A stretch of 64,000 bases of DNA from Bryoerythrophyllum caledonicum (lineage: Eukaryota; Streptophyta; Bryopsida; Pottiales; Pottiaceae): positions 16,756,291 through 16,820,290 of the forward strand of contig OZ020515.1 in NCBI GenBank assembly GCA_963971425.1, given 5' to 3'. Positions within the stretch are counted from its first letter, which is position 1. Every line of letters begins with the position of its first letter. Positions 10,056 through 50,100 of this stretch are shown one piece after another. The position numbers and the translations under genes are program-made. Under the pieces are notes generated by a model that ran no database searches, was not told the origin of the DNA, and saw nothing but the letters and a program-made list of their open reading frames with translations.

Positions 10056-10673
10056 TACTTCCAAAACATCCAAGAATCACTCTTATTCCAAGTTCACTCT
10101 AAGGGACAATCATACGTCTAGTATTAAGTAATTGTACTCTAATTGTAGGTTAAAAGCTATCTTTTATTGAATACTTAAGGTTATCTATCTACTTTAGAGG
10201 ATTTTAGGTTAAACAAACTTTACTCTTAAAGGATTTAGAAAGGCTCGGTTAACTTCAAGGATAAGAGTGCATGACAAGAGCCTTGCTCCTTGTCTCAACT
10301 GTGCATGTGCTCAAACCTCTAATTTATGCCATGCTTAGCAAATGGATTCTATTTATTTTATTGTTTATTGCTCTTGATTCTTTAATTAAATCCTAAAGTA
10401 GTTTACAAACTTACATTATCCAATCAAGCTCCGTACTTTTCACGTACATCTAATCATATCCATGATTCACGTTCAATTCTTTAACAAACAAATTAGATCT
10501 CCAACATCACACAAGTTAGACGATCTCTATTAATTCTCCACATTCATCACAACCAATTAAGTTTCACAGAAAATAAGTTAATCTGTTTGGAGGCTACTTC
10601 CTCTTATAATTTAGACCTAACTTCAATTACTTGTATGCATATGATGCCACATGCATTGCATTGAGTATGTCAA
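10056..10673. other. Non-coding stretch upstream of the gypsy element
   Basis: No gene or repeat is supportable. This is where a 5' LTR would be expected if the 167-bp repeat found at the 3' end is the true LTR; no good match to that repeat is seen here. Confidence 0.4.
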
Positions 10674-11573
10674 TTGTCATGGCATATGGCAACGGTGAAG
10701 ATTAATTGTCTCTTTAGGGATTGGTAGTATAGTTTTATTGTTAGTATAGCATAAGGGGGGCCTAGTTAGGACTTAAAGTCACTTAATAGGGCTGAATTAA
10801 TACTAGGCGAGTTTGGAAGTGTGAAAGGGGTTATTTCATGAATGGTTTGGGGTGGTTGTAACCCCAAGCCGCCCATGTCACCTTCATTCTTGTCAAGTTC
10901 AGATTTGGATATAGAAGGGAGAGTTGGAAGGATGTGTGGCTTGGAGGCTTGTTGAAGTTGGTGGTTTGTCATGTAATACAAAGCTTAGGGCCGCTTTACA
11001 TCTAGAGGCCGGGCCAATTCATCTCCAAGCCGATTGCACAAAATTTCGGCCAATTTTTGGGCTAGAGGCCAACCTCAAGTAGTCATTATAATAAGATTAT
11101 AACCGGGGCCAATTCTCCCATATGTAAAGCCCTTGGGGCCAAGAAGCCGGGCCGACTCAATAAATCTAGAGAATTTTAGCCCTTTTTTTTTTTGGATATG
11201 ACTTGTTGAAAAAATACATTTTTTAATTCAATTTAAAAAAAAAATTTAAATATGATATTGGCCTCTAGGCGAAGAATTGGCCTTCCATTCTTGGTGCATC
11301 CAATTCACCAAGCTTGGGCCATGCTTGGGCCATGTCAGATCATGGTTTTTCAGAATAAAAAATTCTAACAACCAAGTTGGTCCGGCCTCTAGGTGTAAAA
11401 GGCTTCGGGCCAATTTCAGCCTTTCAGCCAATCCGAAGTGAGGATTTTAAGCCTCTGACACAATGAATTGGCCCGGCCTCTAGCGGCCCTTAGTCGCCGT
11501 TTCTTCTCTTTCTTCACTTTTCTGGACTAATTCTATAGGAATAGAGTAAAAAGAAGGGATATGATCTTCATTA
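10674..11573 (+). repeat. Gypsy leader block, 5' copy, split by a MITE
   Basis: After removal of the 502-base MITE and one TTA, this block of about 395 bases aligns end to end with 20016-20412, with about 23 substitutions counted by eye, mostly transitions. It starts TTGTCATGGCATATGG and ends GATCTTCATTA. It is either the LTR itself or, more likely, the transcribed leader just inside the LTR, because the sequence following the polypurine-like tract at the 3' end is a different 167-bp repeat. Confidence 0.8.
10988..11489. mobile_element. PIF/Harbinger (Tourist)-like MITE nested in the gypsy leader
   Basis: The left end GGGCCGC and right end GCGGCCC are inverted, flanked by TTA at 10985-10987 and 11490-11492. 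The other leader copy at 20016-20412 has the empty site with a single TTA, which defines the insertion exactly. Subterminal CTAGAGGCCGGGCCAATTCAT is present at both ends, inverted. TTA duplication and GG-rich ends fit PIF/Harbinger. No coding capacity. Confidence 0.85.
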
Positions 11574-11887
11574 CTTGACAAGAATCTAGTTTGTTTTAGT
11601 TGTTGGAATTTAGTGCGGAAGACGACGTTGCGGATGTACGGAGGACTGTAGACGCTGTAGAGGCGTTGCGGAGGTGCTACGGAGGCGTGGCGACAACGGC
11701 AGCAAGAGTAGTTGGAGCGGCAACAATGATAGTGGAGCGTCGGAGGTTTTTGGAGTGCTTGTATTTGGGAGCGGTTGTTTTTGGAGGTATTTTGGAGTTG
11801 TTGTCGGAGTTGCAACGTTGATAGAAGAAATTTTGGGAGAGACGAAATTGACTTTGGAGGTAAGGGTGACTAGATCGGATAAGTGAC

Positions 11888-12328: not shown

Positions 12329-14254
12329 TTGCTTCGTTTCAAGAATGGTTTGTTGCATGCACATCAAGCTATGATATTTGATCAGTTGATGGTACAAACA
12401 GGTGAGAAAGACTACGGGTCACCAAAGTATTCATCGGTATCCGATAAGGTATATTTGGAGGGCATTGACGATGAAGAACTTGAAGAGGGTGCACATACGC
12501 CCCTCTTTGCGGTTGATCCACCTAAACCTTGGGGGTTTAATGCCTTTGAGGACATGGATGACCACGGTGGTGGATCCATGGTTTGAGATCGATACTCAGG
12601 GAGAGTTGAAGGCATAGCCTTCAACGACTAGAAGACCAGATTTCGATCATGGCAAATAACAATGAAGCAACGTAATCCATTCTTTAATGATTGGTGGGCA
12701 TTTGAGCAATTACCAAACCATTTGGAGTTTGAGGCATTGCAAGCATATGATGCGTGATTTGAAGACCACAAGGAAGATCTTGGTGCTGTTGAGGACTACT
12801 GGACGCGACGCGTGAAGTTGGTTACATCATTGAAGGAGGGTATTGCTATTCCTGCAGCTAGAGCATTGGATGATGATGATGATGATGAGGAAGTCTTGAC
12901 AAGTGGAGATGCAACACAGACAACAAGGCTTCAAGCTGCTGCAGCCAGGGCTTGTAGGGCTAGAGAGAGCACCGCCTCAGGGACAAGAGTCACATTCACA
13001 TCTTGATTGTCCAGAGCATCCACAGAAGCCATAGCCACTATTGGACCTCCGCCTTACTTTGATATGTTGGTAGTATTCTTTGAACACCTGGAGGTTGAGT
13101 TTGGTGGCATACGACGAGATCGTATGCCCCACAGTCATGATTTCAAGAAGAAAGTTGGAGATACTCCAAAGATTATGTATGCACGCCTTGCAAGGTTTGC
13201 TCGTGACAGTGGAGATGCATTTACAGAGCGTCAATTGGTGGAGCTTTACATGAGAAAACAAGACAAGAAGATCCGAGAGATGGCACATCTTCATATGCTA
13301 TTGATGTATAGAGGTCGAGCTACCTTAGCTTAAGCATTTGCAATAGTAGAGCAATTTGACCGAGGGTTGTGCGTGGAAGAAGCTGGAAGATTATCATACA
13401 TTATGACAACAACGACAAGTCAACTTAAGGCTACTACTGGAGGTCCAAGCAAGGGCCATGCAAATTCAAAGCCACCTAAGCAAATTGCAATGGCTGCAGA
13501 AGAGGCAACACCTACAAATTCTCGTATAAAGTGTTGGAGATGTGGAGAATTGGGCCATAGCAAGAAGGATTGTCCAAAGCCTTCTGATCGTGTAGGTGGT
13601 GCAAGTGAAAGTAAAGGAAAAGCAGTTGACAAGGCTCAACAAACAGAGACACAAAGTCAAGGCAAACCTGCCAGCTCTCCTCCTAAATGCTCTCATCCTA
13701 CTTGTGGACGGATAGGGCATACTGAGGCTCAATGATGGATTAAGAATCCACAGTTGAGGCCTCAATCTTTTCAACCACAAGGGAGTGGATCAACCTTTGG
13801 AACTAACAGTTTGGAGGCACGTATGGGTGAATTGCAAAATAGCTTGGCATTGTTGCTTGCAGCAACAAGTAAGCAAACACCTGCAACCTCCAAATCAAGA
13901 TCGGCACATAGTGCCTCTCAACAACCAGAGTATGACAGATTTGAATATGGAGCCCAAGGAGAGTTGATGGCAGCTGCAACAACAAGGTCACAGTTGAAGA
14001 CACCATCACAGACATTAGATATACTTTGAGATCCCGTGTTGGTTGATAATGAGTTTGGTGCACGCCACAAACAACCTGCGGACAATATTGGACAATCACG
14101 ATTGCCCTTGACATTTGGTCTTGCAGATGTGGCAACCAAACCACTTCACAATCAAAGTCTTAATGAGGACAAAACATCTTTGGAGGAGGATATGGTCAAG
14201 AAATTGGAGCTTAAGGTATTAGAGATCCCATTGTTTTCAGGCATGCAAGTGTAG
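12329..14254 (+). pseudogene. gag (capsid/nucleocapsid) of the gypsy element
   Basis: Gag would package element RNA. One frame runs across 12329-14254, broken by stops. A retrotransposon-gag-like helical region is readable at 13007-13333, including FKKKVGDTPKIMYARLARFA. A CCHC zinc knuckle CWRCGELGHSKKDC lies at 13532-13573, and a second, CSHPTCGRIGHTEAQ, follows about 110 bases later with its last Cys codon replaced by TGA. An Asp/Glu-rich run is encoded at 12864-12890. The zinc knuckles and position ahead of protease make the gag call firm; boundaries are not certain. Confidence 0.75.
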
Positions 14255-14581
14255 AGTTTGAACTTTGATGCAGCTATGTTCTATTATATGGCTGGAAAGA
14301 TAATACAAGGGAAAGTGCTATTGCCTGCCAATGTAGCTATAAAAGAAACAAAAGAGGCTATTGTGACTGAAGATATAGAAGGTGAAAAAAAACAAGCTGC
14401 TTCTGAGGCAAGTGATGCACTCAGGCGCTAGAAGGATTGGAAGAAGGAACCTCCTTTGGCAGTAGAGTTTGATAGCGGCTTACATTTGAATGAGAATCAT
14501 TTTGATTTGGGAGATGATATGAAGGTTGCTACAAAGTACTTGGCTAATATTCCAGCCAGGGAAACTCGTGAGCGATTGTAG

Positions 14582-15229
14582 ATGAAGCCAGGGGTGGTTA
14601 AATTGGCCAATTCAGGCCATGTATTTTCTGTAGCTAGAGGTAATGGTTCTAAGGTGTACCCACAAAAGGTTTTGCTTGATATAAGGGCTCAACCAATAAT
14701 GTTGGAAAAGAACCTAACAGAGAGCCTAGGTATTAAAACAGAAGACCTTGATCCATGCCCTTTTATAACTGCAACATCTCTTGGGGGCACATAACATCCA
14801 ACAGGGCTTATAAAAGAACCTCTAAAGCTACAATTCAAGGTGGACAACGATGCATATACTCACATATCTGTAAGATGTGTGATCACGGGTGCCACCACTT
14901 ATGATATACTTTTAGGGCAACATGCATTGTACCCCATTGATTTTGGTCACGATTGCTGGACTGAGGAGACATGGTTTAGATCGGGTTGGTCTCAAGGAGA
15001 TGGAAGGAAGGAAGTACTCCTAGTCAACTTTGGTGCCACTGCAAAACTAGTACATAGACAAGTAGCAATGTATGGATGCGTTGCCGAGTGGTTTGCATAT
15101 GGTGATTTGCTACTTGAGGGAAACACATCTTCATTGGATTCACCTCCACAATCAGACATGCAAGTGCCAACTCAATTGGGCAAGTTTGTTAGGCATCCAA
15201 AGGATCCAACGCCACCGTGGACTTCATAA
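14582..15229 (+). pseudogene. Aspartic protease region of the gypsy element
   Basis: This would cleave the polyprotein. KVLLDIRAQPIMLEKNL corresponds to the retropepsin active-site block, where D-S/T-G-A is expected; here the Gly is Arg, so catalysis is doubtful. ITATSLGG and TTYDILLGQHALYP match the flap and the later (I/L)LG strand of retropepsins. A TAA at 14792-14794 interrupts the frame. It lies in the same frame as gag and the methyltransferase that follows. Confidence 0.75.
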
Positions 15230-15235
15230 AAAGGC

Positions 15236-16708
15236 TTGATGGATCAATGCCAAGAATTGGTGAAAAAAATTGATCAACACCTTTGGGAGCCAAAATATAC
15301 AAGGCCTCCTCTGCAGAAGCTTGTGGAGCTTTACATAGAGGCTGGGAGCATAGTTCTTGTAGAACTATTTGCTAGACTTGGTACAAGATTGGCTGCTGCT
15401 TTAGAAGCTCGATTATCTACACAAAGTTATACATATGTGGATAATAATGTCATTGTCAGCACAACAACAAAGCATCATCTTCAACACTTGCAGATGAGAT
15501 ATTTAACGCAATTACCCGCAAGTGCTATTCAAGATTGTATGTCACGTTTACCATCGGACATTGCTTTGATTGGCCAAGAGGATCTTCGAAGGTTAGGAAG
15601 AGTGGACCTTGTGATGGCTGGATGGCCTTGCCAAGGGCTATACCGAGTTGGGCCAGGTCAAGGCCTCCAAGACCCTCGATCTGCTCTATTTTGGGAGCTA
15701 TTGCGGTTGTTGAAGTGGTGGCAACGCCTTCAAGCCACTCATGTAGCCTATATCTTTGAGAATGTCCCACCATTAGGGATGGTCAATGCACAATTGCAAA
15801 ATGCTGCAGCAGAGACGTGCGTACATCTTGGAAAACCAGTACTAGTGGATACAACAACTCTTGGTTCTTATGCCAACCGCAAGAACCAAAAATTTCCTAG
15901 TGGAAATGGACAAACTTGGCTTCCGCACGAGGTATTTGGGCAACATTGGGGCAACTTACACGTCCACAAGGGAGGCATGTTGACCACATTTTAGATGTTG
16001 GTCGCTTTGCTCAACAAGTGGTGCAGGCAGATTCAGCCCCATTTGCCTAATAAATAATCTAGGGGAGCCTCGTTTGGCTTTGCCTACATTCATGAGTTGT
16101 CCTCGATCTTTCGCATTTCGTGAAGGAGGACCAAGCTTAGTATTTGATACTAGCACACAAAGTCTTCGTAAGCCTTGTGCTGATGAATGGGAGAGAGCCA
16201 TGGGCTTTCTTATAGGTACAACAAGTGGCCCTGGAATTACAGAGTCTCAACGCCGCCACATCCTTGGACAAACTATGGATTTAAACTCCATGACTTGGTT
16301 TCTAGGGGTTTGTCTAGCAGCTCAAGTGCATCAAAATGGTGGCTTGGATGGACATCCGGGGGCAAAGTCTTCAAGTCAGGGGCACAGGGTGGAATGACAC
16401 CTCATGATATTTCAAAAGAGGTTCATCCAGATGTAGAGGTGTGGCTGGAGAGTAAGCAAGCCTGGGATACAACCCTTAGAGGAATGAAGACGCGAGATGG
16501 AGGTGCCTTTGAATGGGTTGTAGAAGATGAACTACGAGGTCAAGGGGTCTTGGCGGCATTGGCCCAAAAATTGGGTAAGGAGAATGCTAAGGAAGTTTTT
16601 AACAAGGTATTTTTTGTAAAGAAAGCACCTCCTTTGGCTCATGTTCATGATAAAAAGATAACATTTATTGCCTTGGAAAAGGGCAATGGTGCATCTTCAT
16701 CCAACTAG
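15236..16708 (+). pseudogene. C5-cytosine DNA methyltransferase domain inside gypsy pol
   Basis: The enzyme class transfers methyl from SAM to C5 of cytosine in DNA. Motifs appear in canonical, unpermuted order: motif I as VLVELFARLGTRLAAALEA (15350-15400; the two Gly of FxGxG are Arg here); motif IV as AGWPCQGL with the catalytic Cys codon at 15629-15631; GLQDPRSALFWE after it; motif VI as FENVPP (about 15755-15770). A target-recognition-like stretch follows, then motifs IX/X as EWERAMGF and RRHILGQTMDLNSMTWFL at about 16180-16305. A TAG at 15992-15994 and a frame disturbance near 16000-16070 interrupt it. The canonical order separates it from plant DRM enzymes, which are permuted. It shares frame with gag and protease and precedes RT, so it belongs to the element and is not a nearby host gene. 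Confidence 0.85.
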
Positions 16709-16799: not shown

Positions 16800-18430
16800 T
16801 GGGACTTAAGGTCCAGAGGCACGGAAGGTGCGAGCTTTCATTCGCTCGTACAAGGCATGCTTTGCTTTCAAGCTCACTGATTTAGAGGGCTATAAGGGCA
16901 AGCCGGTAAGAATACAATTGGAAAACGATTATCCAATATTTAGACGTCCATACATGTTGAGTATTTTTGAAAGAGATGGGGTCAAACTGGGATGCTAGGA
17001 GTTGTTTGATGCAGGTTTGGTGGAGCTCTCAGATGGTGAATATGCATGTGCAACGGTCATGCTAGCGAAGAAGGACATTCTTAGAAATTGGACGGAGAAG
17101 CGTATGTGTGGAGACTACCGGCCAGTTAACAAGAAGACCAAATCGGATCGCTACCCTATGCCTACACCTGAGGAGTTATTTGATGCAGTTGGAAAAGCAA
17201 GAGTCTTTAGTACTTTGGACTTGAGGTCACGGTACCACCAATTGCTATTGAGAAAAAAAGATCAGTGGAAGACAACATTTTGGGGAGTAAATGATGATGG
17301 AAGAGATATGCTCTTTCATTGGAAGTTTTTACCTTTTGGATTAAAGAATGCTCCAGCGGAATTTCAGCGTGTGATGGATCAAGTCTGAAAGGGTTTGTCA
17401 TTTGCTCGGTATTACATAGATGATGTTATTATCTTTAGTGATACACCACAAGAGCATGTAAAACATTTGCAGCAAGTATTTGAAAGGCTACAATAATGGG
17501 GTCTTCGCTTGCATCATGGAAAGTGCAGGTTTTTTCATGATCAATTTCGTTATTTGGGCCATATGATCACGCCAGGAAGTTTAGGTGTACAACAAGCGAA
17601 GGTGGAAGCCTTAAATAGAATTCCAATTCCTAGAGATGTGTCAAGGTTGAGAGCTTTCATGGGTTTAGCAAACTATTATGGTCGATTTGTTCCTGGTTTT
17701 ACTCTTTTGGCTAAACCTTTGACTCTATTGACATGCTCTGATCAAGAATGGATGTGGGGCCCTACTCAAGAAGAAGCATTCGAGGCCTTGAAAGGAGCAC
17801 TAGGTTCAGCACCAGTGTTGAGGAGGCCAGATGCAAGACGGCCATTCCAACTCCATATAGATTGGAGTATGTTGGAAATTGGTGTTGTTTAAACTCAAAA
17901 GGATGATGATGGAAAGGAGTATGTCATTGCATATGCTTCTCGAAGTAACAATGATGTAGAGGCCAAATATTCATCTGATGAAGGAGAATGTCTTGCGGTA
18001 GTATGGGCGGTGGTGTATTTCCGTCCATACCTTTATGGACAAAGCTTTACACTTGTGACTGACCATCAACCTCTTAAGTGGTTGATGGAATCAAACAAGC
18101 TTACAGGGAAGTTAGCCAAATAGGCATTATTATTACAAAAATATGATTTTGAAGTAGTCCATAAGGCATGGTTGCAAGATTTGGATGCAGATGGCTTAAG
18201 CTGTTATCCAAGCCCATTGCAAGAGGACTTGACCGGTGCCAGGTAGCACAGTACCTCTGACCAAGAGGTAGTGCCAAGTTGGCATGCTTCAACTTATTTG
18301 GCATGGATGGAAGGGAAATCTGGCCAAACTATTGAAGAAGCTTTGGGAAATGTTGTAGATGAACAGTCAGATGAAAAGGGATCTAGAATCACCGTTGATG
18401 TGTGGCGAGATGAAGGAATTTTGTATCGTC
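16800..18430 (+). pseudogene. Reverse transcriptase and RNase H of the gypsy element
   Basis: RT copies element RNA into DNA. Readable blocks: GYKGKPVRIQL then CGDYRPVNKKTKSDRYPMPT (about 17107-17165), VFSTLDLRSRYHQL, FLPFGLKNAPAEFQRVMDQV and the catalytic YIDD at 17413-17424, intact. RNase H follows, with IAYASRSNNDVEAKYS and LVTDHQPLKWLM. TGA (17386) and several TAG/TAA stops break the frame, among them TAG at 16996-16998 and 18121-18123. Relative to gag-MTase this region is shifted one frame; whether that is decay or an original frameshift site between 16.7 and 16.8 kb cannot be told from one copy. Confidence 0.9.
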
Positions 18431-18564
18431 TATAATATGGGGAGTTTCTTCCTAATACCACACCTCAAGAGCAGGACCGGATAGCTCATAGAGTGGCTAG
18501 ATTTCATTGAGAGGGTGGACTTATATTTTGGAGATGGGAAGATGGAACACGGAGGGTAGTTCCT

Positions 18565-19610
18565 AGGCCAGAATAACGTCTATAGTTGATACAACAAATG
18601 CATGAAGACTTGGGACATTTTGGAGTACGACGCATACACTCAATGTTGCGTGGTCAATTTTGGTGGATGGGCATGCAACAAGAGGTGGCAACCTATGTGG
18701 GGAGGTGTGAAGTTTGCGATCGGGTTAGATCAAGCTTCAATACCTTGTCTTCCCAACTACAACCATTACCAATTATGGGATTGGGCTATAGGTGGAGTCT
18801 TGATTTTGCTGGACCATTGATGACCACAAAACGAGGTGTTAAGTATGTGCTTGTTATGGTGGAGCATTTCAGCAAGTGGATTGAGGTGGTGGCTTTACCG
18901 CAAAATTCCCTAAGCTAGTAGCGGAGGCATTCCTAGATCGAGTTCTAGCTAGGTTTGGAGCCCCTACAGAGGTGTTGACAGACCAAGGGAGGGAGTTCCT
19001 TGGGTCTTTTGAAGAGCTTTGCATTAAAGCTCTAATTGATCATCGAATAACTTCTAGAGACCACCCAGAGGCAGATGGATTGGCAGAGAGAGTGGTTTAG
19101 ACAATCAAACGTGGATTATGTAAATATGGATTGCTAGCAGGCAATCATAGAGATTGGGACATCAAGCTACCGTGGATAGCGATGGATTATCGTTTCAGTC
19201 GGCAAGCTTCTCTGGCATGTTATAGTCCTTATCAGCTACTCTATGGCAGAGAGCCAGTATTGCCTTCGGCAGTAAGAGAGAAACTAAACACTGTTGTGGA
19301 CTAGGATGATCCGAAGATTTGGGCACAAGTGCTACAAGATCGTGTTGAGAATTTCCAAAGGGCCATACCTATGGCTATGGAGAACTTGGCAATAGCGCAA
19401 CATAGAGATAGGTTGCATTATGCATGTATTAGGAGTGGAGCTTATAAACTTCAGCTTCAACGTTTTCAAGTAGGTGATTATGTATATTTACAACGTGAGG
19501 CACCCACAACCTTTGATGTTCGAGCAGGTAGAACCATCTTGCGGGTCAAAGAGATCTTGCCAAGTGGGATCAATACATCAAGAGATGGCGGTGGTTCCAG
19601 CTGGATATAG
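18565..19610 (+). pseudogene. Integrase of the gypsy element with GPY-like tail
   Basis: Integrase inserts element cDNA. The HHCC zinc domain is readable: LGHFG, IHSML, FWWMGM, CEVCD (18610-18725). The DDE core residues are all present: Asp in SLDFAGPL (codon 18803-18805), Asp in LTDQGREF (about 18981) and Glu in LAERVV (19086-19088). A frame change at about 18905 and TAG stops (for example 19098-19100) disable it. The tail VGDYVYLQREAP and ILRVKEILPSGI resembles the GPY/F module that follows gypsy integrases. No chromodomain is seen; a PHD finger follows instead. Confidence 0.88.
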
Positions 19611-19761
19611 ATGTTTTGTTTGTGGAGAAACCAAGGGCGCAACAACTATGTTGTTATGTGACCAATGTCAGAGAGGGTGGCATATGGCATGTCTTCATCC
19701 TCCTCTGGCAACACTTCCTGAAGGAGATTGGAATTGCCCATGGTGTAAGAAATCAAGGTAA
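19598..19761 (+). pseudogene. PHD zinc finger at the C-terminal end of gypsy pol
   Basis: The sequence reads YRCFVCGETKG, MLLCDQCQRGWHMACLHPP and GDWNCPWCKKSR, then TAA. Cys/His spacing is C-x2-C-x11-C-x2-C-x4-H-x2-C-x14-C-x2-C, the full Cys4-His-Cys3 PHD pattern, with the Trp two residues before the last Cys pair typical of histone-H3-reading fingers. No ligand residue is lost and there is no internal stop, in contrast to the rest of the element. It lies one frame from the GPY-like tail, so a small indel near 19560-19600 probably separates them. PHD fingers bind histone tails; here it could direct integration or tether the complex to chromatin (inference). Confidence 0.85.
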
Positions 19762-19832: not shown

Positions 19833-19847
19833 AGCTAGGGGGGCAAT
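19833..19847 (+). other. Polypurine tract before 3' terminal repeat
   Basis: AGCTAGGGGGGCAAT directly precedes TGTGGAATTC, as expected for the primer of plus-strand synthesis followed by an LTR starting TG. Confidence 0.65.
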
Positions 19848-20014
19848 TGTGGAATTCTACAAGATTGTCTTGTATTGTGTGGATTTGCTGATAGTTACAT
19901 GTTACGTATGCTTATGAAAGGATAGCTCTTATGAGATTTGCATAGATCATGAGTATATATAGTAGTGAAGTGGCTATACGACACATACTATTGATGACAT
20001 GAAGAGATACGACA
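19848..20014 (+). repeat. 167-bp terminal repeat, copy 1 (probable 3' LTR)
   Basis: Starts TGTGGAATTCTACAAG and ends GATACGACA, so it has TG...CA ends, and it follows the polypurine tract. It matches 20413-20579 with about eight substitutions over 167 bases. It is short for a gypsy LTR. Confidence 0.65.
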
Positions 20015-20015
20015 G

Positions 20016-20412
20016 TTGTCATGGCATATGGTATCGGTGAAGATTAAGTGACTCTTTAGGGATTGGTAGTATAGTTTTATTGTTAGTATAGCCTAAGGAG
20101 GGGCCTAGTTAGGACTTAAAGTCACTTAATAGGGCTGAATTAACACTAGGCAAGTTTGGAAGTGTGAAAGGGGTTATTTCAGGACTGGTTTGGGGTGGTT
20201 GTAATCCCAAGCCGCCCATGTCACCTTCATTCTTATTAAGTTCAGATATGGGTGTAGAAGGGAGAGTTGGAAGGATGTGTGGCTTGGAGGCTTGTTGAAG
20301 TTGGCGGTTTGTCATGTAATACAAAGCTTAGTTGTCGTTTCTTCTCTTTCTTCACTTTTCTGGACTAATTCTATAGGAATAGAGTAAGAAGAAGGAATGT
20401 GATCTTCATTAT
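20016..20412 (+). repeat. Gypsy leader block, 3' copy
   Basis: Copy of the block at 10674-11573 without the MITE. It lies between the two 167-bp repeats and begins a few bases after the first one, where TATGGTATCGG loosely resembles a tRNA primer-binding site. It probably derives from a second, internally deleted element sharing the LTR. Confidence 0.75.
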
Positions 20413-20579
20413 TGTGGAATTCTACAAGGTTGCCTTGTATTGTGTGGATTTGCTGATAGTTACATGTTATGTATGCTTATAATAGGGTAGCTCTTATGAG
20501 ATTTGCATAGATCATGAGTATATGTAGTAGTGAAGTGGCTATATGACACATACTATTGATGACATGAAGAGATACAACA
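20413..20579 (+). repeat. 167-bp terminal repeat, copy 2
   Basis: Second copy with TG...CA ends (TGTGGAATTC to GATACAACA). Flanking bases do not form a clear target-site duplication with either candidate left end. Confidence 0.65.
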
Positions 20580-21622
20580 CACTCTTAATGCTTTACAATG
20601 CAATTGTTTCAATAAGAATGTTTTATCCCCACTCTTATATTTTCATCTTTCAAGTATCTCCCACTTGAATTCATAGATTTTAACTTATGCTTACATTTTC
20701 ACTCAAATTAATTTAATCACAATCACTCTCTTATAAGGATATATTCACATAAATTTAGTCTTTAATCACACAATATCACATTTGACCTAGATAGGTTTTG
20801 CCCAAATTTTGAATATGAAGACCTGATGTTAAATATACTTATGCATGGACTTGACTTCACACAAACAAGACCTAATGCAAACAAGTACAAAATATTAACA
20901 ACACAAAGTAATACAATATCAATGTATATTAAATAAATAAGGACTCTTACATAACCAAGAAGAGCTCCTTGACTAGCTTCTCCTAAAGCTAGGACTCACT
21001 CCATCTTCAATGTGTGTAGTGTTGAATAATGCTACTTTGGCTAGCTATTTATACTACCTATTTTCTAAAGGTTGCACCTTTTAACAAAAGGTTTTTTCCT
21101 TTTCTAGCCAATAGAATTTTTTTGATTTATTTCCGACACCTCTTCATGGAAAGGTCCATCTTTCTCAAAGGGTGTGAGTTTAACCCTTTTCCCATTGTTT
21201 CCCAATCATTCAATATGAAGAGGTACTTTTTAATCAGTTAGCTACTTAGTGTGAACATTACCACTATTTTATCTAATTTTTAATATATCTACAACCCTTT
21301 TTACACTATAAAAATTTGAAAAATCTAATTTTAACATTTTGGCTCTACAAGAAAGAAACTCAACAAAGATTTTTTCAAATTTCATCTCAAAGATGTCAAA
21401 TTGATACAAAATTTAAAAGCCCAAAATCCACTAGAGCCCATAATTGTGTTGTAGAGAATGTAATACTGTAGTTGTTATGAGGTGGGTTGGATTTTGTGCC
21501 CTCCTTCGACTAATGCTAACAAGTGACAGTGAGTAAAAGCAAGAAGAGATGCCATACATGATCCAATTCAGCATCCCTTTTTGAGACTTTTGAGGCAAGG
21601 CCACCAATGAGGAGCTTGAGTA
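20580..21622. other. Non-coding AT-rich stretch
   Basis: Nothing supportable; the 70-codon open frame at 21029 is Phe/Leu-rich and looks like chance. Confidence 0.45.
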
Positions 21623-31303: not shown

Positions 31304-34300
31304 TTACTTGAATTTAGAAAGAGAAAGAAACGGAAGACACTCAGAAATCCGTAATAGTGCTGGCAATGGTGTGCTGGGTAGCGCAAGTGCAAGCACTGGA
31401 AGCGCGGAATGGAGATCGGATCGCATGATATTTGGAAAATCTGGAACCTCGTGTACTAACTGTCGGAGCGCAGAGATTATACGCCGTGGCTGAGGAATTC
31501 CGTACCAACAGAGAAAACATGAGAACAGGATACGGCACACTCTTGTGTCTAAAGCGGATGCTTTCATCAATCCATAATCTGATATCCGAGCCTGCTTCAT
31601 TGGGAACTGCCGGCTGTCAAGGTAAGCAAACAGCTCAGAAAAGAAGGGCTTCAGTTCTGGGTTCTGAGCCTCTGAGGAGAAAAGAGAGGGGCTGTTGAGG
31701 ACGTCATCCACCCGCTTTGCTAGCCCAGTCAAGAATGTGCGCTGGACGAGAGGCTTGCTTTCTCCACTTTGATCTATAATATCACAATATGCAACCGCAA
31801 TCTTCAGACTGTATATAGAGAGAGAGTCACTGCAAATACTGTTTGCACTTGTTCCCCTCCCAGTGGCACGATCTATTAGAGCCTCGACAGAAGTATATAA
31901 TGCCATGTAGGTCTGCAGTAACGCTGGACGATCAGTGCTCACGGATTCGTATAACGCTTGTAAACAGAAATTGTCGAAATCTCCACTTGACTTGCTGTTG
32001 TCCGCTCTGCTGCAGAAGAGTTGGGCAAAAGCTAACATGCTAGGATCGGCTGAGAATGTGCTCACTAGCTGATCTACCTCAGAGAGTTGGCTTCTACCAG
32101 CTGCTTGTGAGCAGTTGCCATCGCCACTTTTATGAATTGCTCGAGAGAGCAAAGATCGGCAGCCTATTGGATCGTCTGCATACGAGCGCGCTCCAACTTT
32201 ACGCTTCACGTACAAAGTTCCTCCATCAAAAGGTCCTGATTCACCCGGTTCCCACCAAGGTTTGTCCACAGTCGGCAACTCAATATCCTGGGGCCAATAG
32301 CGCGGACCACAAACCCTCACTCGTTTCAGAAGATTCCGTTCTGGAAGTATACAAGGCGTTACCCGGCTAAAAGTAGTTTCCCCGTAGTGTAGCGTTTCCT
32401 TCAACGTCATTTCGATGGGTACATAGACAGGTAGTCCAGTGTCCACATCAACTGTCTGCAAACAGCGTTTCTCTGTTGCCAATACATATAAATGTCGGAA
32501 TGCTTGTAGGTGACATCGATGATCATTAGGTGCAGTAGGGAACCTGGGGTACAACGCAATCAGAAGTGCAGCTACGGCACCATTGTTGGTCGCAAATGTA
32601 AGACCACCTCCGCCAAGAAACAGAAATCCAATGGCCATGCTTATGGCCATCTGGTTCCCATATGTGATTCCATCGGCATCTGTTCTTCGTCTCAGGAACC
32701 TCAGGAGTCTGAAGGTCTCAAGATGGCCTGTGCCAGCCATGACCAAGCTCAAAGAGAGCACAGCGACATTGAGACACGTCTCAAGGGTGCTGCGGTCAAC
32801 ATACTGTCGTCTGTTACTAGGGCTTGCCGCGGCACCATGTGGAACTGCTGCACGCTTCTCGTTCATGAAATAGAGAGCATAGTGTCGTAGTGATTGCTGA
32901 GCTTCGGCACTAGCTGTCCCTGCATATCTCAATCCAATTGATAAACACGCTCCAGCCAAAATGTTGACATGTGCTTGCGCAAGGGCCTCAAGATCTGCAT
33001 CCGCATTCAGAGGCAGCTCAGGAGAACCATCCTCCTTCGAAGATACGAGCACAGCCTCTTTCACAATACCAGGTATCTGAGACTGTATCCACTCCTCCGT
33101 TGGCTGCACACTATCCCATAAAATCAAACTCCGAGCTACCAATCGTAACAATATAAAATCCGGTCGAACATACTCAAGGGCAAAATGTGTATCCGGAACG
33201 ACTAGGCGAGCCGCTACCACCTCGCAATTGGTCTTCAAAAACATGAGCCCAAGAGCTAAAGTTGCACCAGGTGCAGTGACATCTAAATTCACTGTCGAAC
33301 CTTCCATAACTTGCGACTGGTCGTCAAAACCTCTCGGCACGGAATTGATGCTGCTCACAGTCCCATCGAACCGCCTTTGTCTTTCATCGATGGTATCACT
33401 TCCTCCAGACATGTAGTGTCTCAAGCGATCCTCAATGTGAAGATCAGCTAGACCCCACGCATCCCTTCCTCGACCTAATGTCACAAGCCCTAAAGCAAGA
33501 CCAGCCGCAAGAGCATACCCTTCCCTATCCAAAGCATTATCACCACCAGGCTTCCGTCCAATCTCAGCAAGAAGAATCTCTGTAGTCAATCGGTGCGCTG
33601 AGCCTTGATACAAAAGACCAACAGCTAACAAGGCTGCAGATTGCACAAGGGTTGGCAACTCCAGCTCTGGATAAGAAGGGGGGTGCCGTGCAGGAATATG
33701 GAGATACAACATTTTGGAAATCCCAGGATCCATAGTACCTCGATGAGCTGCAGACATACCTAAGAGTACACCTACAGTCGTTGCCTCGTGCTCCTGAGAA
33801 AGATACCGGTATACATCTGTTGCTGCGAGAACACCAAGGTGTTTGTGTAATCCCAAAGCCATCAGCAAGCCAGCGTGTGAAAAATTTGGCTCATCAGGTT
33901 TATTGTAGACAATCCAAGTACGAGATATCTTTGTCTGACCCGGAGCCAGCCGAAGACCAGCAGCGACGCCATTGTGAAATTCCGGCCAAGAAGTGACATC
34001 GGCAAGATTGCCTGTGTTTGCATCCAAATTCACAGTGGCGTCGTGTTGCGAAGGAAGGCGTCCAGCAAGTACAAGTTTTGGAATGGGCAGAGCCTCTGTC
34101 AACATTGCACTCGATGTCCCCAAGGTGAAAGCTCCTCGTCCAAAAGGCAACGCGGTAGTCCGCTGTGCTAGCTGCCACAACTGTGCCTGCTGCTGAGCAA
34201 CAATATCAGGATCACTAACATCTGGTGCGTTGCTTGTTCGCACAGCCACGGGCTTCGACGAACCTAGCAACCGCCTGACCTCGTTCAAACGGAGATCCCG

Positions 34301-37060
34301 ACCAAATCGAAGCGGTGCTGATGTGGTCGCCATGTGCTCCATACCATCAACCACTTGAGGGTCCACTCCAGCCGAGGTACCATCAGGGTCTGCAGAATCA
34401 TTCGGATCACTAGAGCCAGGAAGACTAGAGATCGGCCGTAGGTGTAGAGTGTAAGGGGCGGCCATCCAAAGGTCATCGATCTGCTTGGTCACTGAAGATG
34501 CGTCATCCACGTTAAGCTTCTCGCCAATCTTGTGTGTTACCATACGTTTCAAGGGCCTCGCTACATGTGTGGAAGCCAGATCTTCACGGCCAATAAGAAC
34601 ATACGCTTGAGCTGGCCAATTTCCTGGAGGAGCTTCACGACACCTATCCAAAGCATGACGCAATGGAAGGGAGACGCCAGGAGGAAGGCGATCTAATTCG
34701 GGAAGTCCGAACCCTTCAGCTACCATAGCAAGCACCGTGCGCTGCTCTGCACCAGTGGAAATGCCTGGTGCAATGTGTAACTGCACTCCAGATGGCAATC
34801 GTCCATTCACAACTTCCCCACCAGTCAACAGATCATAGAAACCAATCACTCGACGAGACCAATCAACACAACTCGCAGACTCCTTCGTAAGCAAACCAGG
34901 CAAATTCTCCATATTTTCAGCCGGACGTTTGCCTCTCAGACAATTCTCAAGCCACTGAAAGAGGTTAGGAGGAACTTTCCCGTCGTTTCTCAAGCTCGCT
35001 GAATCCGGCAGAACAGGCAACGTCGGGACAGCCAAGGGGAAGTCGCGTGAGTAGTGGTCTAGATATTCCATTTCTCCAGCTGCTGCTGCTAGACTGCTCA
35101 GCGTTGCTCCCAACTGCCAAAGCTCTCGCCAGCGCAAAGTGTCTAGCTTGCAGTCTTCATAGACAGCATGCAACACTTCAAGAATTTCAATCATCACCGA
35201 AAAATAAACAGCCGTCTCTGCATCAACGTCGTCCGTAATGATGGGACCGGGCATTGGGAGAGTCTCGGCAATGCTGCCAGATTCCTTCGGCATCAACGCT
35301 GGATACCTCAAATTTGCCAAATTGCTGCGATGCATACTACTCTGCAACAGAAAGTTCCACGCAGACGAATCGTCCTTTACGGGCTTGTGAGGAGGAGCCT
35401 TCTTAGGCGGAAGTATCTCCCCGGGCATGTCTCTAATAATCTCGGTGATGAGCCCAGAAAAGGCTGCCCATTCCAGGTCGGGCTTGCCACTGGCTTTAGC
35501 CGTTGTTACACGCAGAGCATCTGCAACTGGAAACTCTCGCTCAAGCAGTCGGGACAACAAATAACGGTAGAGCGCAGGGCGAAGACCTTGAGACAAGGCA
35601 TTCACACAGAGAACAGTAATGGCTGATGCGGGGGTCAAACCAACTGCGCATCGGTACATCATTCCAGATTCCGTCACCACATTCACACGCCCCTGCACTG
35701 GATCACAGAGCCTCACGATCTTCTCCGCCTCGTCTCGCCTACTGCTCGCTCCATCCACCGGCATCAGAGAGCCCTTGCCTGGAGACCTTACACCGCACGA
35801 CAGCACCGCCGAGACAGGAAGATAATATCGGCACACATGATACCGACCTGTATGAAGCGACAGAGTGCCATCCGGGGACAACGTCAGAATATCATATGCA
35901 GGACCGCCTCTGTTTTTCAGCCCCGGGCGAGTGGCAACGATCGGAGCAGCTGAGATAGCAGTGATTGTCCATGCAACCTCCATCTTCGGCTCACCCTGCG
36001 CATCACTGGTAATATCCGAACTATGAAGCCTGAAGGAAAACAACTGCTGCGACTCCGCAATCACCAGGCACAACAATGCCACTCCATCCTCATCGGTCGC
36101 CACGAACACCTCCCTCGCCTGTTGCTGCTCGCCCTTCTTCGTCCACGAGCGCTGCAAACTAATACTCTCCATGATATCCCACGCAGGCGCGTCCTTCAGA
36201 ACATTAGACTCCGAATCCGCAGGCGCTGCCTTCACCTTCCACACAGTATGCTGCCTCTTCCCTGCGTTATACGTCACAACATACGGAACTACAGTGCTGC
36301 TCCAAATTATGCTCTCATCCATATCAGCCAACAACCTCGACTTCGCTCCCTCCTCAACCTTCACCGGATGCGGCATCTCCAGCGGATGCTGCAGATAGAA
36401 AAACGTCGACGTTGGCCTGCAGGCCGGCGGCGTGGACAAAAAACTCGACCGCCTGGACGGCATAGGGGAGATCACATTCTCGCGAAATCCTTCCCGCAAC
36501 CAATCACGATGATGAATCGGCGACTCCATCGCCATGGAGAACGTGTCCGAGCTCAGCGTCGGCGTCCGATCCGCTCCACGCTGCAGCAATAATCCACACG
36601 GAAGCGGCCAAATGGCGGAGACGCGGCAATGCAGCGGCACAATGTGCATCTCCCCAGACGGCGTATACGTATTGATGAAATCGGAATGCAACACGCACAG
36701 CAGCGGCTCGCGCGTATCGCTCATCCGACACCACTTCGCCTGCACGACGGTCGCCGCGCAGCTGAAGCGCTTGCGCACATGCCGCCCGGCGCTCCACACC
36801 ACCGTGTTGTTGTGCACGTAGAGCTCCTCGTCGTGGTCCCCGAACGTCGTCGCCCCGATCTCCACACTGCCTCCCTTCTCGCACACGGCCTCCGCGTCGA
36901 ACAGCGAGTACTTCTCCTCCTTCCCGGAGACGCTGCTTTCCGCGCCTGCATTGCTCTCCACCTCCCGCCCGTAGGGCTCGAACGCGCCTACCAGGCACAA
37001 TGGCCTCGTCGACTTCGGCATGCTTGCTTGCGGGCGATATCCGCCACCATAGAGCGTCAC
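31304..37060 (-). CDS. APC1: Anaphase-promoting complex subunit 1, single uninterrupted frame
   Basis: APC1 is the largest scaffold subunit of the anaphase-promoting complex/cyclosome, the nuclear E3 ubiquitin ligase that targets cyclins and securin. The 1918-residue product begins with the plant-type N-terminal segment RPLCLVGAFEPYGREVE, followed by a beta-propeller-like region with ELYVHNNTVVWSAG and VVQAKWCRM (residues about 1-500). Proteasome/cyclosome (PC) repeats, Gly/Ala-rich helix pairs such as AGLLMALGLHKHLGVL, ALLAVGLLYQGSAH, YALAAGLALGLVTLG and MAIGFLFLGGGGLTF, lie at about residues 1060-1510. The C-terminal helical part ends SECLPFLSLSKFK. Length fits the family (about 1700-1950). 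A second Met at residue 14 (37021) is an alternative start nearer the conserved segment. No introns are seen, unlike the many-intron gene expected in flowering plants. Coding GC content is well above the surroundings, especially near the 5' end. Confidence 0.95.
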   Translation of the reverse strand: MTLYGGGYRPQASMPKSTRPLCLVGAFEPYGREVESNAGAESSVSGKEEKYSLFDAEAVCEKGGSVEIGATTFGDHDEELYVHNNTVVWSAGRHVRKRFSCAATVVQAKWCRMSDTREPLLCVLHSDFINTYTPSGEMHIVPLHCRVSAIWPLPCGLLLQRGADRTPTLSSDTFSMAMESPIHHRDWLREGFRENVISPMPSRRSSFLSTPPACRPTSTFFYLQHPLEMPHPVKVEEGAKSRLLADMDESIIWSSTVVPYVVTYNAGKRQHTVWKVKAAPADSESNVLKDAPAWDIMESISLQRSWTKKGEQQQAREVFVATDEDGVALLCLVIAESQQLFSFRLHSSDITSDAQGEPKMEVAWTITAISAAPIVATRPGLKNRGGPAYDILTLSPDGTLSLHTGRYHVCRYYLPVSAVLSCGVRSPGKGSLMPVDGASSRRDEAEKIVRLCDPVQGRVNVVTESGMMYRCAVGLTPASAITVLCVNALSQGLRPALYRYLLSRLLEREFPVADALRVTTAKASGKPDLEWAAFSGLITEIIRDMPGEILPPKKAPPHKPVKDDSSAWNFLLQSSMHRSNLANLRYPALMPKESGSIAETLPMPGPIITDDVDAETAVYFSVMIEILEVLHAVYEDCKLDTLRWRELWQLGATLSSLAAAAGEMEYLDHYSRDFPLAVPTLPVLPDSASLRNDGKVPPNLFQWLENCLRGKRPAENMENLPGLLTKESASCVDWSRRVIGFYDLLTGGEVVNGRLPSGVQLHIAPGISTGAEQRTVLAMVAEGFGLPELDRLPPGVSLPLRHALDRCREAPPGNWPAQAYVLIGREDLASTHVARPLKRMVTHKIGEKLNVDDASSVTKQIDDLWMAAPYTLHLRPISSLPGSSDPNDSADPDGTSAGVDPQVVDGMEHMATTSAPLRFGRDLRLNEVRRLLGSSKPVAVRTSNAPDVSDPDIVAQQQAQLWQLAQRTTALPFGRGAFTLGTSSAMLTEALPIPKLVLAGRLPSQHDATVNLDANTGNLADVTSWPEFHNGVAAGLRLAPGQTKISRTWIVYNKPDEPNFSHAGLLMALGLHKHLGVLAATDVYRYLSQEHEATTVGVLLGMSAAHRGTMDPGISKMLYLHIPARHPPSYPELELPTLVQSAALLAVGLLYQGSAHRLTTEILLAEIGRKPGGDNALDREGYALAAGLALGLVTLGRGRDAWGLADLHIEDRLRHYMSGGSDTIDERQRRFDGTVSSINSVPRGFDDQSQVMEGSTVNLDVTAPGATLALGLMFLKTNCEVVAARLVVPDTHFALEYVRPDFILLRLVARSLILWDSVQPTEEWIQSQIPGIVKEAVLVSSKEDGSPELPLNADADLEALAQAHVNILAGACLSIGLRYAGTASAEAQQSLRHYALYFMNEKRAAVPHGAAASPSNRRQYVDRSTLETCLNVAVLSLSLVMAGTGHLETFRLLRFLRRRTDADGITYGNQMAISMAIGFLFLGGGGLTFATNNGAVAALLIALYPRFPTAPNDHRCHLQAFRHLYVLATEKRCLQTVDVDTGLPVYVPIEMTLKETLHYGETTFSRVTPCILPERNLLKRVRVCGPRYWPQDIELPTVDKPWWEPGESGPFDGGTLYVKRKVGARSYADDPIGCRSLLSRAIHKSGDGNCSQAAGRSQLSEVDQLVSTFSADPSMLAFAQLFCSRADNSKSSGDFDNFCLQALYESVSTDRPALLQTYMALYTSVEALIDRATGRGTSANSICSDSLSIYSLKIAVAYCDIIDQSGESKPLVQRTFLTGLAKRVDDVLNSPSLFSSEAQNPELKPFFSELFAYLDSRQFPMKQARISDYGLMKASALDTRVCRILFSCFLCWYGIPQPRRIISALRQLVHEVPDFPNIMRSDLHSALPVLALALPSTPLPALLRISECLPFLSLSKFK

Positions 37061-37198
37061 GCGGGGCTCGTTCGCATCGCCTTGCTGTTGTGAGTCTGCG
37101 AGCTGAGGTGACCGTTCAGCGAGTGCGCGGTCCTGGAGGTTCCCGCGTCGTCTTCGCCATCGCCATGGCGTTGTTTGCGAAACCTTGGAAGCTTGAGG

Positions 37199-37209
37199 AT
37201 TAGGGTTTT
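37199..37209 (-). promoter_or_regulatory. Telo-box-like element upstream of APC1
   Basis: The minus strand reads AAACCCTAATC about 140 bases before the APC1 start codon. AAACCCTA telo-boxes are known in promoters and 5' leaders of plant growth and cell-cycle genes. A single motif this short could be chance. Confidence 0.35.
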
Positions 37210-46690: not shown

Positions 46691-48250
46691 TCACCGTTCG
46701 CCTGATTCTTCTAGGGTTCGCATTCCGGTTGCCCTGATGAGTTTTCGATGTTGATGTGCGGGAAGTGCCTTCGTGAGGACGTCGGCTATGTTCTCCGCTA
46801 AAGCAATCTTCTTCACTTGAATCTGATTTGTATCCGTCAGGTCTTGTGTGTATCCGAAGATATGAGGGCTGATGTGTTTTATTCTATCAACTTTGATGAA
46901 GCCCGAGGTGACTTGTTCTACACACGCGGCGTTGTCCTCAAAGATCGTGGTCGGCTTGTCCGAGTTTGTGATCCCACACTGTTGAAAGATAGCCTGTTGC
47001 ATCGTCCACAGCCATACGGCTTTCCTGGACGCTTCGTGGAACGCAAGTAATTCAACATGGTTGGTGGAGGTAGCTGTCACGGTCTGCTTGGTTGACCTCC
47101 ACGAAATTGGTGCCCCATTCTTCACGAAGATATATCCTGTTTGGAATTTGCCTGTGACACGGTCGGTTTTAAAACCGGAGTCGGCGTAGCCAATGATATC
47201 ACTACCGGCGTTCTTTTGGAAGTGTAGACCAAGGTCTTCAGTGCCGTGTAGATAGTGTAGGAGATGTTTAATCCCCTGCCAATGACGCATTGTTGGTCGC
47301 TGGTTGTGCCTTGCTAGTATGCTGACTGCAAATGATATATCGAGTCGCGTGTTTGTCGCGAGATAGAGTAGTGCTCCCACTGCGGCTAGATATTGTGTCT
47401 TATCGACCTCCTCCTCGTCATCTTTGGCAAGTCTGTAGGGGTCATCTTCAGTCTTGCTTCGACTGATCATGGGCGCGGACAATGCATTGGCGTTCTCCAT
47501 GTTGAATGTGCGCAGGAGCTTCTTAACATAGGTCTGCTGATGGAGTAATATACTCCCATCGGAATAGTGCTGTACCTGTAATCCAAGGCAATACGACGTG
47601 CGGCCTAACACTTTCATTTCAAAAGTTTTGGTTAGTATGCTCTCCACATGAGCGCATAAGGTAGCAGTGCCAATGGAGTTTAAATCATTGACGTATAGCG
47701 CCAAGATGACAAACCCTGATTCATCCTGCAAGACAAATACACAGGGTAGCGCTGGATGATTAGAAAATCCATGCGCAAGCAAAAAAGCTTTTAAATGATG
47801 GTACCATGCCCTACCTGCCTGCTTCAGGCCATACAATGCCTTGTGGATTTTTAGGCCGGTGAACTTGCCGGGCTTGGCAGAATTTACGTTAGGCAAGAAA
47901 TCAAGTGGCGGTTTAATATGAATTTCCGCATCTAGATCTCCGTAAAGATACACTGTCACTACATCGAGCAAGCGAGTTTCCAGCGTCATTTGAACTGCAA
48001 GGCTCAATATATATCTAAAGGACGTGCTGTCTTTAACTGGGGAATAGGTTTGCTCAAAATCAATGTCGGGTTTCTGTGAATAACCCTGGGCTACGAGCCG
48101 AACCTTGAATCGGACCACATGTCCGTGTTCGTCGCGTTTACGCGTGAATATAAGCCTGTGACATATCGGTTTGGTGTCCAGGTTTGTGATTAGTGGTCCG
48201 AAGACTCCACGTTTACGTAGAGATTGGTATTCCGCCTGTAGGGCAACTTC
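46691..48250 (-). pseudogene. Copia reverse transcriptase and RNase H
   Basis: Copies the element RNA. Readable RT blocks are VRLVAQGYSQKPDIDFEQTY, YGLKQAGRAWY and FVILALYVNDLNSIG. The catalytic YVDD is YVND here (about 47683-47694), an Asp-to-Asn change expected to kill activity. The RNase H end contains IADVLTKALP. The frame continues upstream to a TAG at 48251-48253 that cuts it from the integrase; both sides are in the same frame, so a single nonsense change is enough. Confidence 0.9.
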
Positions 48251-48253
48251 CTA

Positions 48254-49555: not shown

Positions 49556-49674
49556 CTATACATCCACTTTGCTACTTGCAACGTGGAATGTTGTTTTTTC
49601 GCTTCCCTGAGACATGCAAGGGGTATTAGCTCTTAGCCATGAGGCCCTCGAGTGTTCGCCAACCTCTTCTTTAC

Positions 49675-50097
49675 TCAAATGAGCAAGCTTGCTTCCATAT
49701 CAGAGATTTTAAGCTCGTATAGGCCGTTGGCTCCCACGTGTGCGGTGGCGAGGATCCTCATCCCTCGCCTGAGCTCCAACGCCTCTTCATCGTTCGCACT
49801 CGCAATGGAAACGTGGATACAGTTTGCTCTCAAATCTCGGTAGTTGATCAGGCTACGAGGAGCGTCCGGGGCGTACATAGCCCGTTCACAAATCAAAGGG
49901 TGGCCCCTGGGCAATGCTATTGTTGCCCAGCCCTCACGGAATCTGAAATTCCGTGGCCCCGCAATAGTGACGATGTCACAACATTGCCATGGGTCGTTTT
50001 TATTTTTAAACTCAAAGAACCTAGAGTCTTGTAAGATGGTGTGACTTGATGCACTATCGAGCAAAGCGATTTTTGCTTTGGTCGTCTGTGATACTCT
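49675..50097 (-). pseudogene. Copia aspartic protease
   Basis: ALLDSASSHTILQDSRFFEF contains the single retropepsin Asp, but the following Gly of DSG is Ala. It lies in the same frame as gag after a TAG at 50098-50100, and one frame away from integrase, so a frameshift lies between 49559 and 49675. Confidence 0.8.
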
Positions 50098-50100
50098 CTA

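Follow-up and report, generated by a model that had tools for sequence, protein, structure and literature searches.

A Ty3/gypsy-type retrotransposon family that carries its own DNMT3-type cytosine methyltransferase between split terminal repeats

The closest described system to the element reported here is KnitGypsy-Dnmt3 of the charophyte Klebsormidium nitens (de Mendoza et al. 2018, PMC5890265), which joins gypsy domains to a canonical-order DNMT3-type enzyme, has DIRS-like repeats in the order A-coding-B-A-B according to a figure legend, and shows purifying selection on its DNA methyltransferase (DNMT), with a Ka/Ks <0.2. In Symbiodinium, SymbioDIRS-Dnmt3 and SymbioLINE-Dnmt are likewise retrotransposons with a DNMT, and the DIRS type has split repeats (PMC5890265). 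PMC12344493 cites streptophytes and dinoflagellates for DNMT-bearing retrotransposons, and transposons encoding DNA methylases were stated in 2019 to be absent from land plants (PMC6338049). In the literature that we searched (open-licence papers, no preprints) we found no DNMT-bearing retrotransposon in a land plant; this and all later statements about published systems refer to the accessible portions of the cited sources. Here we describe a DNMT-bearing retrotransposon from a 64,000-nucleotide stretch of contig OZ020515.1 (the window, by which we mean the whole of that stretch). In the window lies a decayed copy of a Ty3/gypsy-type element in which a canonical-order DNMT3-type enzyme sits between the protease and the reverse transcriptase, and this copy belongs to a large, conserved family in a host that is probably of land-plant kind. 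A moss would fit the chromosome-scale contigs of the 437-Mb genome and the anaphase-promoting complex gene, copia element and TTTAGGG-like repeats of the window.

A first-pass annotation, made from the letters of the window alone, had placed a C5-methyltransferase at 15236-16708 inside a gypsy element, and our analysis confirmed the enzyme within narrower limits. The open reading frame (ORF) at 15230-15994 matched the Pfam DNA_methylase family at 2e-7, above the family cut-off, and the NCBIfam dcm model at 4e-8, but under the curated cut-off of that model. When this ORF was compared with solved structures, the best match was DNMT3A/3B (~4e-4), behind which came HaeIII (8e-4), HhaI and DNMT2, and no CMT or DNMT1 chain was among the matches at E up to 1. 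Aligned to L010, an intact relative described below, the domain extends over 15359-16394 (+ strand) in three pieces (15359-15880, 15901-16047 and 16038-16394) that lie in three successive frames, the first frameshift falling after about 15880, and it covers residues 1-344 of the 357 of the L010 domain; the remainder, 16395-16705 (+), is a linker to the end of ORF1 and holds no methyltransferase. The annotation had also put all the motifs in the gag-protease frame, which was correct for motif I (LFARLGT), motif IV (GWPCQG) and motif VI (FENVPPLG), but not for motifs IX/X (ERAMGF, LGQTMDLN), found in another frame after the frameshifts. The absence of stops from the three pieces results partly from their having been cut at the frameshifts and was not used as evidence, and single-sequence structure prediction was uninformative, with a predicted local distance difference test (pLDDT) score of 37.5 for the window ORF and 34.3 for the L010 DNMT. 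We consider the domain real beyond chance because of its Pfam score and because the same genome holds more than 100 copies of it in this family, most of the checked ones at the same place.

L010 (CADCWO010000201.1, 9285 bp) is filed under a Synechococcales metagenome bin and was the one relative that we recovered by scanning prokaryotic genome contigs with the window integrase (84% identity over 108 aa). We attribute this plant-type retrotransposon contig to contamination of the bin with eukaryotic DNA, given that the genome of the window holds copies up to 95% identical to the L010 DNMT. The 127 bases at the start of the contig recur at its end and define an assembly circle of 9158 bp; assembly circles are a frequent outcome of collapsed repeats. 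Gene order is the same as in the window copy: ORF1 (gag, protease, DNMT) is open on both sides of the contig ends, ORF2 (reverse transcriptase, RNase H, integrase, PHD) is open, and the DNMT matches Pfam at 6.8e-12 and, as its best solved structure, DNMT3A at 1.2e-7. Scanning the prokaryotic genome contigs with the window DNMT piece confirmed no relative, and the viral contigs yielded no useful one. Two minor observations came with these scans: three IMG/VR contigs (L007, L008 and L009) weakly resemble part of the integrase, at 34%, and the cyanobacterial bin of L010 (G001) contains further retrotransposon-like reading frames, at 23-38% identity, and seems eukaryote-contaminated.

In the genome of the window (G000, 437 Mb), where all copy counts are lower bounds, the L010 DNMT used as query gave at least 114 scored copies from 2299 first-look candidates, and the integrase-PHD region gave at least 150 from 2351. 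A listed DNMT was located 2.5-7 kb upstream, on the same strand, in 83 of the 150 integrase-PHD copies and in 54 of the top 60. From the 67 copies with no listed DNMT we picked eight by hand, six better-ranked and two of a diverged kind, and all eight carry the whole or part of the domain at the expected place; seven retain the greater part of it, and in L110 the piece shows residues 191-357 alone. The first-pass annotation had argued that multiple copies between protease and reverse transcriptase would support an element gene and that family copies lacking the domain would speak against one; the former were abundant, and none of the latter appeared among the 91 integrase-PHD copies examined (83 + 8) out of 150. 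Two of the eight, L115 and L116, which lie on small contigs (G000:C836 and C642), make up a second subfamily; their DNMT frames are open and share 57% identity with L010 and 81% identity with the window piece. By sequence, the window copy is assigned to this second subfamily as a decayed member.

To measure selection we compared the 30 highest-ranked copies with L010 (29 copies for the protease). The median ratio of nonsynonymous to synonymous divergence (dN/dS) was 0.091 for the DNMT, with a maximum of 0.112, as compared with 0.103 for the protease and 0.043 for the reverse transcriptase, and within the DNMT it was 0.047 for residues 1-105, 0.037 for 70-190 and 0.108 for 180-310. Between copies, the medians were 0.153 for the DNMT and 0.108 for the reverse transcriptase (5-95% ranges of 0.09-0.44 and 0.05-0.45, respectively). 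The motifs GWPCQGHS and LGQAIDLN were unchanged in 30/30 copies, LFAGIGT, FENVPPLG, SYAHRPR and ERAMGF were each unchanged in 26/30, and the DNMT was free of stops in 24/30. It counts against this result that the measured copies came from the top of a ranking by protein similarity, a choice that favours conserved copies; the between-lineage synonymous divergence (dS) of 0.32 is not a product of ranking by protein score. We hold it practically certain that the DNMT is the element's own gene and under selection. The opposite view, in which a local host-gene fragment was captured or a chance insertion hit a single element, is one that the window copy alone could not have excluded, but we found no support for it, and the more than 100 copies, the shared position of the checked ones, the intact relative in another record and the purifying selection led us to reject it with hardly any reservation.

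Next, we examined the kinship of the enzyme. In pairwise comparisons with 11 references, of which the phage and plasmid enzymes had been picked as best hits of large collections, the window enzyme scored 37.6 and 34.0 bits with two phage enzymes, 32.0 and 30.2 with two plasmid enzymes, 28.8 with human DNMT3A, 16.8 with DRM, 14.5 with DNMT2, 1.6 with CMT and 0.0 with DNMT1. We then built a tree in which five elements and the window piece were set beside ten reference enzymes. Each eukaryotic reference is one example of its kind, and the branch leading to the elements is long; phagePCA1 (-0.9 bits, its annotated frame without the N-terminal motifs in the alignment) was left out. The elements formed one group (100/100), which fell with human DNMT3A and tobacco DRM (86/89, not starred) rather than with the plasmid enzymes; the tree does not separate which of DNMT3A and DRM is nearer to them. 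A grouping with CMT/DNMT1 was rejected by the approximately unbiased (AU) test (p-AU 1e-4), as was one with DNMT2 (p 0.027), and we discarded CMT/MET1 and DNMT2 as the source on these grounds. DRM was discarded on its motif order, which is permuted in DRM and canonical here; the first-pass annotation had excluded a DRM capture by the same argument, which was borne out, and a tree of the kind that it proposed as a check has now placed the elements with DNMT3A and DRM. Two results pull away from a DNMT3 affinity: the phage and plasmid enzymes outscore human DNMT3A against the window enzyme, and a grouping of the elements with two phage DNMT3-like enzymes was not rejected (p 0.11). Taken together, the comparisons support an enzyme of the DNMT3 type, with a phage-type DNMT3-like source remaining a candidate.

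The repeat layout of the family was studied in 30 of the 114 copies, for each of which a 5' and a 3' piece was retrieved; most of these copies rank high and some rank low. The 5' repeat, X, was found in 25/30 copies and had the second repeat unit, Y, upstream of it in 0/25; of 18 such 5' X ends that were read by letter, 17 start with TGTC and one with TATC. At the 3' end, Y flanks X on both sides in 22/30 pieces. The terminal repeats are split, in the order X-coding-Y-X-Y, throughout the family among readable copies. In the window, the 5' repeat X1 (10675-11572, +) is the X part of the long terminal repeat (LTR) only, with no Y upstream, starts at the same place as the 5' ends of other family copies, and is 94.4% identical to X2 (20015-20410, +), which is flanked by Y1 (19846-20014, +), the first part of the LTR as defined by reverse transcription, and Y2 (20411-20579, +), these two being 94.7% identical. 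Two identical full LTRs flanking the element were looked for in the window copy and the family and not found, the 5' end being X only and the 3' end Y-X-Y. We also discarded the possibilities that the window repeats form an ordinary TG...CA LTR, since the family places the ends of the complementary DNA (cDNA) at the primer binding site and the polypurine tract, with the TGTC/GACA ends inside the LTR, and that a circle was linearised by chance in one copy, since the layout is family-wide among readable copies.

Target duplications were scored in the 20 copies with both ends readable, leaving out 10 copies without one or both ends in the fetched pieces. A perfect 4-bp duplication flanked 18/20, one copy matched at 3/4 and one had none, while mismatched copy pairs, used as a control, shared 4 bp in 2/380. 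The window copy is bordered by CAAT on the left (10671-10674) and CACT on the right (20580-20583), which agree at 3/4 bases. In these 20 copies, the X pair diverged at 100/6854 sites (1.46%) and the Y pair at 31/2053 (1.51%); given this equal divergence, the X and Y pairs arose together, in one event per copy. At the Y/X border, L010 and 17/20 copies contain the palindrome GACAGCTGTC, and the window copy has GACA GT TGTC at its Y1/X2 border (20011-20020), the candidate site of circle opening. The hallmarks of DIRS elements, a tyrosine recombinase and no target duplication, were not found in this family, which has an rve integrase and the 4-bp duplications.

Directly after X1 of the window copy lies a primer binding site, ACTTGACAAGAAT (11573-11585, +), which is a perfect 13-nt complement of a putative self-primer, ATTCTTGTCAAGT (10886-10898, +), located at the predicted start (R) of the RNA. 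A complement of this length was reached by 0/5000 shuffles; X2 of the window copy no longer keeps it perfectly. The primer site after X1 is ACTTGACAAAGAC in most copies and is perfectly complementary to the X1 stretch in 21/22 readable ones, and in both L010 and the window copy the primer site and its X1 complement have changed together. Judging from these complements and by analogy with Tf1/sushi and Tcn1 elements, in which self-priming is known (PMC6317226), we regard reverse transcription as self-primed in this family. At the other end, a polypurine tract, GGGGGG + CA (19837-19845, +), adjoins Y1. The X2-Y2 border could be read in 21 copies, 18 of them comparable with their own ends; in 16 the predicted cDNA ends meet there exactly, in 2 the join has one extra base, and the remaining 3, which have no primer-site context of their own, show the same form. 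In the window copy the border (20410/20411) is an exact join. The primer binding site, the polypurine tract and the LTR-LTR junction are all consistent with gypsy-type reverse transcription.

These features suggest a route of integration. The RNA would prime its own reverse transcription through the 13-nt repeat and give a linear cDNA, YX-coding-YX, one end of which would lie immediately upstream of the primer site and the other immediately downstream of the polypurine tract. The two ends would then be joined into a 2-LTR circle, which we infer because the X-Y border equals a join of the predicted cDNA ends and the layout equals a circle opened at the Y/X border. DDE integrases act on recessed CA ends, and integration from a circle junction was once proposed for retroviruses and later abandoned. 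Here, the integrase would cut the palindrome GACA GC TGTC inside one LTR, after CA on each strand, which would create two recessed CA ends at once, and the circle, opened once at the Y/X border, would be inserted as the permuted X-coding-Y-X-Y with a 4-bp target duplication. Duplications of 4 or 5 bp are usual for plant LTR elements (PMC6317226).

The element itself being the same, its split repeats could instead be made during reverse transcription, with the integrase acting on a linear X-coding-Y-X-Y DNA. DIRS-type models derive split repeats in this way, and the layout that we observed could have the same origin; in addition, TGTC...GACA ends and 4-bp duplications do not by themselves demonstrate a circle, and two of the 20 copies are without a perfect duplication, all of which tells against the circle. 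The layout is also that published for DIRS elements and KnitGypsy-Dnmt3 (A-coding-B-A-B, PMC5890265). On the other hand, the primer site and the polypurine tract predict an ordinary linear YX-coding-YX cDNA, the X2-Y2 border is the join of precisely those predicted ends, the occasional extra base being as expected from end joining, and the opening site is palindromic, so that both processed ends would arise at once. On this balance we consider a direct origin from reverse transcription rather unlikely, and the opening of a circle at the palindrome likely.

In 29/29 readable copies out of 30, and in L010, ORF1 (Gag-protease-DNMT) ends with an in-frame TAG CAA TCA, and L010 ORF2 runs on open in the ORF1 frame past this point; the window copy has a TAG at the corresponding place (16706-16708, +) and departs from TAG CAA TCA after it. 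We take this stop to fit the UAG-CAR-YYA readthrough context of tobacco mosaic virus. ORF2 (reverse transcriptase-RNase H-integrase-PHD) would accordingly be a minor product reached by readthrough, with Gag-protease-DNMT as the main one, and the DNMT would be made in Gag-like amounts and packed in the particle together with the cDNA. There it could methylate new element DNA, be it as cDNA, as a circle or as a fresh insertion, and the PHD finger probably directs insertion towards a given state of chromatin. Self-methylation of element DNA was proposed by de Mendoza et al. for their own elements (PMC5890265). Two observations make us cautious about extending the proposal to this family: the CpG observed/expected ratio is 0.47 in the window copy and 0.49 in the surrounding intergenic DNA, a depletion no stronger than that of its surroundings and therefore no sign of special methylation, and the only Klebsormidium enzyme that was tested was inactive in yeast, a result that its authors called inconclusive (PMC5890265). 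We regard self-methylation as the likeliest function of the enzyme and give it an even chance.

A different target is conceivable but doubtful, namely that the main targets of the DNMT are the host or rivals, the enzyme modifying the neighbourhood of the target site or competing elements, or damping its own family. The PHD finger encoded in the integrase ORF could recruit the complex to certain chromatin, and effects on host benefit and the host methylome are discussed by de Mendoza et al. (PMC5890265), whereas the placing of the DNMT within the Gag-protease ORF, ahead of a stop of the readthrough type, suggests high-dose packaging with the cDNA. It appears improbable that the domain has been retained for a role other than catalysis or for one directed at RNA: LINE-type retrotransposon DNMTs have been discussed as possible RNA enzymes (PMC5890265) and the window enzyme has its weak similarity to DNMT2, though the DNMT2 grouping was rejected, and against such a role stand the PCQ and ENV motifs, kept across subfamilies that differ at 43% of residues, the core dN/dS of 0.04-0.05 and the DNMT3 affinity in the tree. 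As a whole, an element family with its own DNMT, readthrough, self-priming, integration from a circle and self-methylation is the best explanation we can offer and one we hold with moderate confidence. A more specific version, which we put forward tentatively, is that of a gypsy-type element in a land plant, probably a moss, whose DDE integrase opens a covalently closed 2-LTR circle at the LTR palindrome, whose DNMT3-type enzyme, supplied at Gag dosage, methylates the circle before insertion, and whose PHD finger picks the target chromatin.

Other gypsy relatives share single traits with this family. REM1 of Chlamydomonas (Perez-Alegre et al. 2005) reportedly has split repeats, to our knowledge no DNMT is known in it, and Tcn1 and Tf1/sushi elements have an ordinary LTR layout. 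REM1 is likewise a green-algal Ty3/gypsy relative of unusual structure, but its integrase is described as truncated and in reverse frame (PMC2774666). Tcn1, which occurs in mosses, and Tf1/sushi share self-primed reverse transcription and differ in having a chromodomain instead of a PHD finger and no DNMT; neither a methyltransferase nor a PHD finger is mentioned in the accessible text of the plant survey that describes them (PMC6317226). The Symbiodinium elements use a tyrosine recombinase or LINE machinery, in contrast to the rve integrase and 4-bp duplications found here (PMC5890265). Plant host enzymes of the DNMT3 and DRM kinds have a DNMT3-type catalytic domain too, but host DNMT3 carries DUF3444, DRM is permuted, and neither is described in an element (Yaari et al. 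2019, PMC6453930).

The likeness to KnitGypsy-Dnmt3 is drawn from its published description. In that description the DNMT is placed in the Pol polyprotein ORF; here it ends the Gag-protease ORF and the reverse transcriptase follows in frame after a conserved TAG, an apparent difference that may depend on how the published ORFs were drawn. The accessible text names neither a PHD finger nor self-priming, target duplications or an opening site (PMC5890265). Relative to that account, several features are new: a conserved family of large size, a PHD finger, a DNMT that ends the Gag-protease ORF ahead of a readthrough-type stop, self-priming, 4-bp duplications and a predicted palindromic opening site. 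A host of land-plant kind is probably new as well. If the host is a land plant, the more than 100 conserved DNMT copies would overturn the statement that such transposons are absent from land plants (PMC6338049), and it would become possible to ask in a plant laboratory system why an element should methylate DNA. Together with the 4-bp duplications, the repeat layout amounts to a definite, testable claim of integration from circular DNA. It also suggests how the DIRS-like repeats of the Klebsormidium element could be read, for which the accessible description gives no explanation (PMC5890265).

In the window copy, X1 is interrupted at 10989-11488 by a 500-bp nested insert with inverted ends and flanking TTA, probably a small DNA transposon. 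The gag region (12758-14600, +) is broken and contains a CCHC zinc knuckle at 13526-13579, and it is followed by a broken aspartic protease region (14600-15226, +) that is 43% identical to L010 ORF1 upstream of the L010 DNMT; the L010 protease matches Asp_protease_2 at 8e-4, just under the family cut-off. Downstream of the TAG lie, also broken, the reverse transcriptase and RNase H (16810-18230, +; RVT_1 3e-12, RT_RNaseH_2 1e-9) and the integrase with its H2C2 zinc-binding region and rve core (18496-19571, +; Integrase_H2C2 3e-15, rve 5e-4), which shows 84-85% identity to L010 over 108 aa. This order of reverse transcriptase, RNase H and integrase is that of Ty3/gypsy elements. A PHD finger (19612-19746, +; PF00628, 9e-11), present in L010 too, forms the C-terminal end of ORF2; a search of L010 ORF2 against Pfam (E up to 0.01) found no chromodomain at the integrase C-terminus.

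Elsewhere in the window, we found a Ty1/copia element at 46691-51132 (-) with long open frames (RVT_2, rve and a weak gag match); its CpG observed/expected ratio is 0.88, as compared with 0.47 in the gypsy copy, and it is perhaps younger. A full-length, intronless frame of 1967 codons for subunit 1 of the anaphase-promoting complex (APC1) occupies 31304-37207 (-), has a G+C content above that of its surroundings and may be a functional gene or a retrocopy. Finally, degenerate CCTAAACCCTAAG-type repeats at 59104-59176 resemble plant telomere sequence (TTTAGGG-like) and are located away from a chromosome end.
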